7,685 nucleotides of DNA from Spirochaetaceae bacterium. GTDB lineage: Bacteria; Spirochaetota; Spirochaetia; B11-G9. The stretch covers positions 1 through 7,685 of the forward strand of contig DAOVSY010000133.1 in assembly GCA_030633365.1 (NCBI GenBank), read 5' to 3'. Each line of letters opens with the position of its first letter. Position 1 is the first letter of the stretch. Of the stretch, positions 2,123 through 5,671 are shown piece by piece. The notes beneath the pieces are model-generated. The model saw only the letters and a program-made list of their open reading frames with translations. It ran no database searches and had not been told where the DNA came from. A program made the translations under genes and the position numbers.

Positions 2123-2719
2123 ATGAGTCTTAAGTCAGAAGCTGACCATAAGGTTATTGCAGGAATCCTGGCAGGCGGTGGAAGCCGTCGGTTTGGAAGC
2201 GATAAGGCCTGTGCTGTTTACGAAGGGAAATCCCTTTTAGAGTGGACTATACACAATGCTTCGGAGATTACTGATAATATAAATATTCTGACAAAAAAGC
2301 CGGATGCATATAATTTTACGGGCTGCAGGATTATTGAAGACCTTCTTGAGGTTTCTACTCCTATTAGTGGTATTATTTCCATTATGCCCTATGTAAGTGA
2401 CTGGCTGCTTCTTTTAGCTTGTGATATTCCCTTTTTTGAAAAGAAAGTATTAGACTTTTTATGGGATAAAAGGGACAGCAAAAAAGCCACAGTAATACAT
2501 GTTAATGGAAAGTATCAGCCCTTTTTGGGACTCTATCCAAAGAGTGTTCTTCCTTATTGGGAAGAAGCATTTGAACGTGAAGAGTATCATCTTCAAAGGG
2601 TTATTGAAAGTATGCCAAAGATTGTTATTGAACAGAGTGATCTTATGTTTGCAGGTATTAGTCTTCAGTCCTTTCTGAATATTAATACCCCTGCAGATTT
2701 AGAACTAATTGGAATATGA
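2123..2719 (+). CDS. mobA: Molybdenum cofactor guanylyltransferase
   Basis: Transfers GMP from GTP to Mo-molybdopterin, giving the guanine dinucleotide cofactor that formate dehydrogenase needs; cytoplasmic. At 198 aa it is close to E. coli MobA (194 aa). The nucleotide-binding signature LAGGGSRRFGSDK is at residues 16-28. The conserved LLACDIPF strand, with the metal-binding Asp101, is at 97-104. QPFLGLYPKS (132-141) and the closing NINTPADLE (186-194) are both typical of the MobA nucleotidyltransferase fold. It begins 9 bases after fdhA and its TGA overlaps the fdhD ATG as ATGA, so the three genes are almost certainly co-transcribed. MobA-like paralogues such as MocA (CTP-specific) share the fold, but the neighbouring bis-MGD enzyme makes the guanylyl function the natural reading. 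Confidence 0.93.
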   Translation: MSLKSEADHKVIAGILAGGGSRRFGSDKACAVYEGKSLLEWTIHNASEITDNINILTKKPDAYNFTGCRIIEDLLEVSTPISGIISIMPYVSDWLLLLACDIPFFEKKVLDFLWDKRDSKKATVIHVNGKYQPFLGLYPKSVLPYWEEAFEREEYHLQRVIESMPKIVIEQSDLMFAGISLQSFLNINTPADLELIGI

Positions 2720-3516
2720 TAATATCAAACAAAGAAATTATTAAATATAAAAACGGTGTATCAGAAAAAGTAAAAGATTCTGTTATAAGTGAAGAATGGT
2801 TTAATCTCTACCTAAATGAACAACTTATCTATCAGACTCCTGTTCTTGACCAGGAAATTGATGATCTTATTTATGGTCTGCTTTTTGTAAAAGGACACAT
2901 AAAAGTAGGGGCGGGCGGCCGTTCTCAAGTAGGGGCACGGCGCGCCGCGCCTCTACTTGATATTCTGCAAAAGGGCAGATCCTGGTATATAAATTTCAAT
3001 GAATCCCTTCCTGGTCAATCTTTCAGGCAAATGGTTGAAGAAGCTTTTAAACATTTAAATAATAATTCTCCGGCTGCTTTTGATATAAAGAAGAAATATA
3101 GGGCTGAAACAATTCTTGACCATATGAGAGAATTTCAAAAGCTGCCTTCTGTTTACCATGAAACTGGTGGTGTTCATATGGCTGCTTTTGCAACAGACAA
3201 AATATTATTCTGGGCTGATGATGTAAGCCGTAGGAACTCTGTAGATAAGGTTATTGGGAAGGTTTTCCTTTCTGATATACATTTTCAGGATGGTATATTT
3301 GTATCTTCAGGCAGAATATCTTCTGATATTGTTATTAGAATGATTAAAACCGGAGTAAAGTTAATAGCCTCTGTTTCTGCCCCTATGGATAAAGCAATTA
3401 AACTTGCTGATTTTTATGGAATAACTCTCTGTGGATTTGCAAGAGGGAAACGTATGAATATCTATACACATTCAGAAAGAGTTGTAATAAAAAAGGAGAG
3501 GTCCTATGGCATATAA
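2716..3516 (+). CDS. fdhD: FdhD-like formate dehydrogenase accessory protein, diverged, with in-frame repeat insertion
   Basis: FdhD proteins bind bis-MGD and pass sulfur from IscS onto the Mo of formate dehydrogenase. Family features seen in this 266-aa protein are: a GF..SEGII-like segment (YGLLFVKGHI, 53-62), TGGVH (150-154), ADDVSRRNSVDK (167-178, family consensus EDVGRHNAVDK), SSGR (197-200), SVSAP (219-223) and TLCGFARG near the end. Two things are odd. The CxxC motif (CGVCG in E. coli, residues 121-124), whose cysteines carry the sulfur, is absent; the only cysteine is Cys239. Residues about 64-82 come from a GC-rich palindromic repeat inserted in frame. Length is normal only because the insertion offsets the shortened middle. 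It starts by an ATGA overlap with mobA and has no strong ribosome binding site, so it is probably translationally coupled. The frame is intact, so I call a CDS. It could be a Cys-independent FdhD or a gene losing function. Confidence 0.87.
   Translation: MIISNKEIIKYKNGVSEKVKDSVISEEWFNLYLNEQLIYQTPVLDQEIDDLIYGLLFVKGHIKVGAGGRSQVGARRAAPLLDILQKGRSWYINFNESLPGQSFRQMVEEAFKHLNNNSPAAFDIKKKYRAETILDHMREFQKLPSVYHETGGVHMAAFATDKILFWADDVSRRNSVDKVIGKVFLSDIHFQDGIFVSSGRISSDIVIRMIKTGVKLIASVSAPMDKAIKLADFYGITLCGFARGKRMNIYTHSERVVIKKERSYGI
2903..2959 (+). repeat. GC-rich palindromic repeat inserted inside fdhD
   Basis: The element has two direct copies of AAGTAGGGGC (2903-2912 and 2927-2936, 24 bases apart), and an inverted near-copy GCCTCTACTT (2949-2958). 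Bases 2926-2959 form a 34-bp near-palindrome centred on GGCGCGCC, with 15 of 17 positions complementary. In the mRNA one of the two mismatches is a G-U pair, so a strong hairpin is expected. It is strikingly GC-rich within an AT-rich gene. The 57 bases equal 19 codons and keep the frame, encoding roughly VGAGGRSQVGARRAAPLL. GTAGGGGC-bearing palindromes resemble REP/MITE-like repeats seen in other bacteria; that family link is from memory and untested. No other copy is visible in the window. Confidence 0.8.
3493..3498 (+). promoter_or_regulatory. Ribosome binding site of the AlaX-type gene
   Basis: AAGGAG lies 7 bases before the ATG at 3506, inside the last codons of fdhD. It fixes the start and shows that the gene can be translated on its own despite overlapping fdhD by 11 bases. 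Confidence 0.75.
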
Positions 3517-4711
3517 AACAGAACTTCTTTACTACAATGATCCATATAAAGTTGATTTTGACGCAACTGTTCTTTCAGTTAAAAAGGTTTCATCCGGGGA
3601 AAATCTCTGGGATGTGATTTTAGATAAAACTTGCTTTTACCCTGAAGGAGGAGGACAGCCCTCAGATTTTGGTACAATTGCCGGGATAGAAGTAGTAAAT
3701 GTTTTAAAAAAAGATGGAGAGGTTTTTCATCGAACTCTATCTCCTCCAAATATGGGCAAAGTAAATTGTAAGATAGACTGGGAACATCGTTTTGACTATA
3801 TGCAGCAGCATACCGGGCAGCATATTTTATCCGGTGCATTGTATAAATATGGATATGGAACCGTTTCTGTTCACCAGGGTGAAAGTGTTACAACAATTGA
3901 AATTGATAAATCTGAAATTTCTGAAGAAGATTTACAGAATGTCGAAACTCTTTCCAACAGAATTATATCTCAAAATATTAAGCTTAATTCTACATGGGTT
4001 TCTGATGCTCAGGTGGATGAACTCTCTTTAAGGAGGAAATCAAAAGTTTCCGGAGAAATTAGAATTATTAGTATTGGAGACTTTGATAAGGTTGCTTGTG
4101 GGGGCGTGCATACTGAAACTACTGGAGAAGTTCAGTGTGTTAAGTCTTTATCTGTAGATAAAATTCGGGGACATGCAAGAATAAGCTGGAAAATAGGTTA
4201 CAGGGTTTTACTGGATTATGGAGAAATGGCTTCTATTTTATCAACTCTTTCAACGCAATTTTCTGCTAAGCAGTCTGAGATACTTTTAAAAGTTAATAAT
4301 GTGTTAAACAGTTTTCAGGAAAATAAACGACTTTATAAGCAGCTGGAAGAACGGTTTATAAGTTTTCGAATTAAAGAATTGTTTAACAAAAAAGATAAAA
4401 TTAATAATATAATTTTTCTTACTGATATATTTGAAAATGAATCAAAAGATTTTTTGCGAAATTTTGTAAGTTCTATTAAAACAGAAAATAAATATTTAAT
4501 TTGTTTAATTAATAAAACGGATTCAAATTTTCAATGGATTCTTGCTTCTGGTGGTATTGATTTTCCATTTAGTGAAAACAGGCAGCATTTGCTATCTTTA
4601 TTAGGTGCAAAGGGTGGAGGTAAAGCTCCTGTTTGGCAGGGGGTAGCAGATAATACTGATGGAATAGATTCTTTTTTTGATGGTCTTGGGAATATACTTA
4701 CTGAACTTTAA
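3506..4711 (+). CDS. alaX: AlaX-type alanyl-tRNA editing protein, long form with C-terminal DHHA1-like region
   Basis: AlaX proteins are free-standing relatives of the alanyl-tRNA synthetase editing domain that hydrolyse Ser-tRNA(Ala), and in some members Gly-tRNA(Ala), in the cytoplasm. Visible in this 401-aa protein: FYPEGGGQPSD (44-54), the start of the AlaRS second-additional/editing region; the zinc-binding HxxxH at 102-106 (HTGQH); and its partner CxxxH at 198-202 (CGGVH). Together these supply the four metal ligands. A helical, charged stretch around 250-295 looks coiled-coil-like. The end, LLGAKGGGKAPVWQG (365-379), matches the glycine-rich DHHA1 motif of AlaRS C-terminal domains. Length fits the long AlaX class. 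No synthetase catalytic domain is present. It is the last gene of the fdh operon by spacing, although its role there is unclear. The 3' end overlaps the convergent cyclase gene by 14 bases. Confidence 0.9.
   Translation: MAYKTELLYYNDPYKVDFDATVLSVKKVSSGENLWDVILDKTCFYPEGGGQPSDFGTIAGIEVVNVLKKDGEVFHRTLSPPNMGKVNCKIDWEHRFDYMQQHTGQHILSGALYKYGYGTVSVHQGESVTTIEIDKSEISEEDLQNVETLSNRIISQNIKLNSTWVSDAQVDELSLRRKSKVSGEIRIISIGDFDKVACGGVHTETTGEVQCVKSLSVDKIRGHARISWKIGYRVLLDYGEMASILSTLSTQFSAKQSEILLKVNNVLNSFQENKRLYKQLEERFISFRIKELFNKKDKINNIIFLTDIFENESKDFLRNFVSSIKTENKYLICLINKTDSNFQWILASGGIDFPFSENRQHLLSLLGAKGGGKAPVWQGVADNTDGIDSFFDGLGNILTEL
4698..4711. other. Tail-to-tail overlap of alaX and the diguanylate cyclase gene
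   Basis: The + strand alaX stop (4709-4711) lies beyond the - strand cyclase stop (4698-4700), so the last codons of each gene are read from both strands. No intergenic space remains, and I see no hairpin-plus-T-run for either transcript at the junction. Converging transcripts therefore probably run into each other's genes. Confidence 0.85.
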
Positions 4712-5625: not shown

Positions 5626-5631
5626 AACATA

Positions 5632-5661
5632 CGTACGGAACAGGCATGCCAGTTTCGTACG
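5632..5661. repeat. 30-bp near-perfect palindrome between gdhA and the cyclase gene
   Basis: Thirteen of 15 positions are complementary around the centre at 5646/5647. The core is GGCATGCC (5643-5650) and both ends are CGTACG (5632-5637 and 5656-5661). It lies 10 bases after the gdhA stop and just upstream of the cyclase promoter candidate. It could be a gdhA terminator (only a short TATGTTTT follows on the - strand), an operator for the cyclase gene, or a small dispersed repeat. A terminator is only one of three options because the T-run is weak. Confidence 0.6.
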
Positions 5662-5671
5662 CAATAATATC

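Follow-up and report, generated by a model that had tools for sequence, protein, structure and literature searches.

Very probably, the GC-rich hairpin block within the fdhD gene analysed here is a double-foot REP that lies in the reading frame and is tolerated as a loop of the protein, and it occupies one of a set of family addresses that remain stable as their contents are lost, gained or exchanged. The element is read in frame in fdhD, relatives carry further copies of it, FdhD homologues have or lack it, and one and the same address holds differing contents in different genomes. The window, i.e. the whole stretch of 7,685 nucleotides that was analysed, encodes a formate dehydrogenase-type molybdopterin oxidoreductase (its 5' end cut by the start of the window), a MobA-like protein and FdhD, followed by an AlaX-like protein, a GGDEF protein, GdhA and a last ORF without a Pfam match. 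The features of fdhD and its hairpin block are as follows:

2716-3516, plus strand: fdhD, 266 aa, its reading frame uninterrupted by the REP (ORF list and Pfam FdhD-NarQ, E 6e-47)
2905-2924, plus strand: partial first REP unit, GTAGGGGCGGGCGGCCGTTC followed by TCAA, like the left 20 nt of a GAACGGCCGTTC-type REP
2925-2960, no strand: 36-nt palindrome, composed of the REP and its complementary flanks TCAA/TTGA
2929-2956, no strand: full 28-nt double-foot REP with arms GTAGGGGC and GCCTCTAC (motif and genome copies)
2929-2932, plus strand: GTAG foot (from the sequence; the role of GTAG in TnpA_REP substrates as given in the published passages drawn on here)
2937-2948, no strand: core of the full REP, ACGGCGCGCCGC, this unit being read as VGARRAAPL in fdhD
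2953-2956, plus strand: CTAC, the reverse complement of the foot (from the sequence; a 'double foot', of the type set out in the passages of PMC6006769 drawn on here)

The earlier note had described a GC-rich palindromic block in frame in fdhD, and this description holds, as the GC content of positions 2903-2959 is 70% versus 33% in the remainder of the gene. Its 34-bp near-palindrome was recovered as the 36-nt palindrome at 2925-2960, the arms of which are 91% complementary. The proposed interruption of 19 codons is indeed in frame, but comprises 18 residues (64-81), located between K63, which ends at 2904, and D82, which starts at 2959. AAGTAGGGGC is present at 2903 and 2927, with the inverted GCCTCTACTT at 2949-2958. 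The palindrome that is dispersed among relatives has the 28-nt consensus GTAGGGGC-N12-GCCCCTAC, and the window carries one partial and one full copy, the first unit having been assigned by comparison, by eye, with the fdhD DNA of L148 and L146. The two units stand in direct order with their starts 24 nt apart, and a REPIN (two inverted REPs and a spacer) was thus rejected.

The RNA of positions 2893-2969 is predicted to fold at -39.7 kcal/mol versus a mean of -24.4 for shuffled sequences (sd 3, z -5.1), with none of 200 shuffles folding as well. A fold of this strength would suit a hairpin under selection for regulation of the fdhD mRNA, through pausing, attenuation or termination; however, this reading is scarcely credible given that the hairpin is missing from 17 of 38 homologues, that no Rfam match at gathering scores was found in the window, and that a terminator scan of 2700-3560 lists no terminator-like site at the hairpin. 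The stem is followed by TTGATATT and not by a T-run, and both an intrinsic terminator and the transcription stop suggested in the earlier note were rejected on these grounds. As both the presence and the sequence of the hairpin vary, a selected role is unlikely. The sole match of the scan was a terminator-like hairpin elsewhere in fdhD (3252-3277, plus strand), which is probably due to chance (one match versus 0.5 expected in shuffles).

Owing to its own sequence, the element can be read in two frames, as VGAxxxxPL or RGxxxxAPT, while the third frame encounters TAG. The AlphaFold2 model of the window FdhD (mean pLDDT 89; best PDB folds the FdhD structures 4pde and 2pw9) places residues 66-76, with pLDDT below 50, in a loop between a helix (48-58) and a strand (83-86), in agreement with the extra loop anticipated in the earlier note. 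Low pLDDT is weak evidence of disorder in this case, since many of the aligned rows lack the insert. Nonetheless, because of the two stop-free frames and the predicted loop position, FdhD may be expected to accommodate the REP as a disordered linker; the model suggests that the insert is probably tolerated as a disordered loop on the surface, and a neutral linker, which would have no function of its own, is the simplest reading. FdhD of E. coli possesses a CxxC motif; the window FdhD has a single cysteine in total, within GITLCGF, and therefore lacks CxxC.

Scanning of genome contigs for FdhD yielded 28 loci, the closest of which, L001 (a Spirochaetia MAG) and L002 (a Spirochaetaceae MAG), are each 76% identical to the window FdhD in their best segment. 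Copies were counted in the eight genomes of the nearest family (G001-G008), i.e. relatives reached through these two loci. The 28-nt motif, searched with a core of 12 nt and no more than two mismatches, was found 39 times in G001, 39 in G002, seven in G004, 31 in G005, 24 in G006 and 17 in G007, and not in G003 or G008. The control with a reversed pattern gave 0-2 matches per genome, the two being in G004, where the motif itself scored seven. The designation as an intergenic-type repeat holds, and the 7-39 copies in six of the eight genomes agree with the description of GTAG REPs as dispersed multi-copy palindromes of 20-40 bp. With 4-30 nt allowed between the arms, exact copies numbered 15 in G001 and 17 in G002; across the phylum Spirochaetota, 28 of 296 genomes had exact copies.

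Long ORFs hold 13 of 78 tallied copies. Homology supports a position within the gene for FdhD, FliG, a PHP-domain protein, RAYT and a small Zn-ribbon protein, relatives of which occur in seven of the eight family genomes. In L075 and L079 the copy lies outside the matched domain of the ORF, while for L077 the family was searched for the ORF with its REP and none was found; this search of REP-bearing ORFs left out L035 and L095. The REP-less relatives of FliG and of the Zn-ribbon protein are similar or variable in length at the site, so that clean insertion was rejected for these two and replacement of a linker is as likely as insertion. A second hairpin-bearing insert of approximately 39 nt was observed inside REPs, including the copy in fdhD of G005, where the frame is still maintained; its pattern, GGTTGCATAG[CG]CGAGC, occurs in L146 (about 1700-1770), L185 (about 1453) and L240 (about 5946), and a related version was seen by eye at L244 (610-679).

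Matches to Y1_Tnp are present in all eight family genomes. Two RAYT-like genes, L067 (G001) and L092 (G002), which are 44% identical to each other, have a REP in frame immediately behind the HUH motif. Against NCBIfam REP_Tyr_transpos they score 67.2 bits (E 1.3e-18) and 65.7 bits (E 3.9e-18), respectively, both below the cut-off of 80, while Pfam Y1_Tnp is passed by L067 and falls short for L092 (19.2 of 23 bits). A REP-like peptide follows HUH within 60 aa in 113 of 119 RAYT homologues (those with the HUH pattern among the best 120 of 7983 matches) and precedes it within 60 aa in 0 of 119, a count that is biased upward since the query itself has a REP peptide and the pattern was written after the matches had been viewed. 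The core class of the window, as the peptide RGTARRAPT or near forms, occurs in six of these 119 proteins, again among the best 120 of 7983 matches; the same class is also found in G005. By eye, the RAYT-like L142 (G007) and L131 (G002) appear to contain decayed internal REPs.

To follow the fdhD address among homologues, a tree of 38 rows, 37 of them different, was built from 34 proteins (some being the G genomes' own), the window and three loci; the 36 best of 230 matches were considered, of which the partial P0035 was not entered and P0033, in which the slot pattern failed, was dropped. A REP occupies the slot in 21 of the 38 rows and is absent from 17. Between GH and the RSW-like motif, the slot measures 13 residues without a REP and 18 with one REP (19 in P0013), while compound forms measure 25, 26 or 32 residues. 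The insertion of an in-frame intergenic-type repeat therefore stands, whereas a clean insert of 19 codons does not, the slot being 18 versus 13 residues and the window combining a partial with a full unit. At the DNA level, for which a search by order for further fdhD sequences yielded eight genomes, the REP is present in G001, G002 and G005 (the last with the further insert at its tip), so that these relatives encode the residues by way of a REP and not with ordinary codons, while the fdhD DNA of G004, G006 and G008 has no REP at the slot.

The position and frame of the element are identical in the 21 rows that possess it. Cores fall into several classes; among 79 collected, self-complementarity is complete in 44 and broken by one mismatched pair in 29. 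A single insertion, inherited vertically and diverging by point and compensatory mutation, would account for the shared position and for the 44 self-complementary cores, but is very improbable because close relatives carry unrelated cores that match other REP classes. Outside the slot, the nearest homologue, P0001, and the window FdhD differ at a single one of 240 residues; inside the slot they differ at 4 of 26, the four being the core residues, RRAA in the window and KDFL in P0001. KDFL fits the AAAAGATTTTTT core class of relatives, as back-inferred from the protein, since P0001 and most of the FdhD homologues are known as proteins alone. Between the two, the partial first unit is kept and only the core of the second unit has changed. 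Similarly, the sister rows P0002 (NGRS) and P0004 (KNLL), joined at 99/95, differ in their core.

The FdhD tree implies seven changes of REP state (bootstrap 6-8), at least three of which are forced by starred branches. These changes could reflect transfer of alleles, i.e. fdhD versions with and without the REP spreading by recombination between strains, and homologous recombination could in general spread the presence or absence of a REP. As an explanation of the contents of the slot, however, allele recombination is improbable, given that the window and P0001 differ in the core and one other residue alone and that the addresses described below changed within otherwise well-aligned DNA. The 17 REP-less rows, with their slot of 13 residues, are scattered on the tree, and empty states therefore exist in fdhD. 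This would be expected if REPs were first lost completely and others then inserted independently at the same hot spot, without being exchanged directly, and the REP-less Zn-ribbon gene of G003, G004 and G008 would agree with such insertions. Nevertheless, we consider this reading rather unlikely, as it does not sit easily with the retained first unit and altered second core of the window and P0001, nor with a pair of relatives (G002 and G007) in which none of eight compared addresses is cleanly empty.

In this pair, 20 HSPs of at least 300 nt were obtained at 83-97% identity, and a 21st links two Y1_Tnp genes at 75% over 488 nt; the HSPs together cover 45,499 nt. Twelve of the 17 exact G002 copies were queried (11 composite and the one in the PHP gene; L030, L040, L092, L097 and L098 were left out), of which L044, L090, L091, L095 and L096 had no usable alignment in G007, and C227:3682 was added from synteny to give eight addresses; L036 and L094 have full alignment of one flank only. 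A ninth site, C141:17279 of G007, was ambiguous and was set aside, as was L235:4349, a GTGA-ended palindrome that is alike in both genomes and represents a different element. The content differs at six of the eight alignable addresses. Clear double-foot REPs of different classes face each other at four of these (the PHP gene, L032, L034 and L036), within HSPs of 95.6% over 5.6 kb for L032 and 96.6% over 2.65 kb for L036, and G007 has an added insert at the L034 address. At the other two, G007 retains a degenerate hairpin (L042) or a remnant arm (L094), which decay could explain. The remaining two addresses keep the type: a single base differs at L093, and at C227:3682 G007 has an additional insert. 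A REP of G002 (L238 about 3122, L246 about 1131) was also seen to adjoin a break, with approximately 7.3 kb of G002 absent from the alignment with G007.

Differing contents were also found at two further sites. The Zn-ribbon gene has a REP of one type in G001/G002, of a second in G005 and of a third in G006, all within about one codon of each other; a search of G007 for this gene gave no match. The other is a second address within the window itself:

5631-5662, no strand: near-palindrome between the GGDEF gene and the 3' end of gdhA, self-complementary at 26 of 32 positions

At this 3' end of gdhA, the window, L001 and L002 have three different palindromes, and L146 has a stretch that is REP-like by eye and was not listed by the palindrome test.

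The sequences bordering the REPs of the nearest family are frequently complementary to each other: at offsets 1-8, 349 of 616 pairs from 77 copies were complementary, and none of 5000 permutations reached as high a value. Two other Spirochaetota genomes carrying the same element displayed no such excess, namely G146 (33/120; 2067 of 5000 permutations; 15 of its 37 exact copies) and G024 (28/120; 4737 of 5000 permutations; 15 of its 35 exact copies), and flank pairing was therefore rejected as a general trait. Landing of REPs in terminators is not supported as its sole cause, since copies in ORFs pair about equally (a mean of 4.6 of 8 in 13 long-ORF copies versus 4.5 in 65 others). The unbroken extension of the flanks is shorter in the long-ORF copies (mean 2.0 versus 3.0), and six or more T beyond the stem were counted in 10 of 32 copies with a long extension and 8 of 33 with a short one. 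In G007, the L094 address has GGGAAAC on its left, mirroring GTTTCCC on its right; the right flank is common to G002, which has AAAAC on its own left side. On the left of the L032 address, G002 has AAACC, which mirrors GGTTT and which G007 lacks there. Complementary flanks could arise through fold-back copying or through landing in inverted repeats, and there are examples that suit each.

Both the family-wide excess and the mirrored flanks of these two addresses would be explained if a resident palindrome were extended and homogenised by fold-back template switching during replication or repair, for which no transposase would be needed on site. This is possible, if somewhat doubtful: on its own such a process brings in no core of another REP class, inverted repeats already present in the host would pair equally (as at the L034 address), and G146 and G024 are devoid of the pairing excess. 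It is quite possible, though short of probable, that the REP addresses of this family constitute conserved exchange slots, in which a cassette-like swap at the feet, both within genes and between them, proceeds faster than change in the surrounding DNA and the palindrome is extended into unique flanks by fold-back. Loops such as the FdhD slot would then change by replacement of a whole REP and not by point mutation. In the broader and more probable reading given at the outset, a 28-nt palindrome that has GTAG and CTAC at its ends, such as is ascribed to RAYT/TnpA_REP transposases, can be lost from an address, gained there or replaced by one of another sequence class; we infer that the exchange would be carried out by a RAYT at the GTAG/CTAC feet, perhaps accompanied by fold-back copying of the flanks. 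The spread of REPs is called poorly understood in the part of PMC8266576 drawn on here, and if contents are exchanged at stable addresses, this spread is not fully described as insertion at new sites and subsequent decay. Such exchange would also be a source of abrupt four-residue changes in conserved proteins, of a kind not expected from point mutation. The window and P0001, and G002 and G007, represent natural before-and-after sites in this respect.

With regard to known systems, the element fits, by its sequence features, a double-foot REP of TnpA_REP/RAYT subclass 2.4. The passages of PMC6006769 drawn on here describe for this subclass double-foot REPs and transposase genes with in-frame REPs between HuH and Y; the window REP resembles the former in its 5' GTAG and 3' reverse complement, and L067 and L092 of the relatives G001 and G002 resemble the latter in their in-frame REP after HuH. 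Those passages do not describe copies in fdhD or addresses with changing contents, and the assignment made here is by features and not by tree. The GTAG REPs of Di Nocera et al. (2013; PMC3733652) are, in the parts used here, likewise short GTAG palindromes with stem subfamilies, some of them in ORFs. In the classic form, however, GTAG is an unpaired end, whereas the GTAG of the window pairs with CTAC, and the element was therefore filed as double-foot and not as classic; those same parts do not list Spirochaetes or any systematic exchange. Rickettsia palindromic elements, as portrayed in that paper's passages, also lie in frame in protein genes, but bear the tag CGTC where the window element has GTAG. 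The REP 'orthoswitch' (PMC3686654, 2013) resembles the exchange seen here in that the REP class changes among related strains; in the portion of that paper drawn on, it concerns REPs flanking RAYT genes and proceeds by mutation followed by multiplication, and not by exchange at ordinary addresses. A literature search for the 8-mer GTAGGGGC gave no REP paper by title among the matches listed, and in the open-access literature, as far as its texts were available (subscription papers, preprints and supplements being outside this scope), no paper reporting that REPs are systematically exchanged at fixed addresses was found. Since REPs within genes have already been published, membership of the class brings nothing new, and the apparent novelty is the address with changing content, to which the nearest case, in the relevant passage of PMC3733652, is that of two Xanthomonas species carrying different REPs at about the same site in recB.
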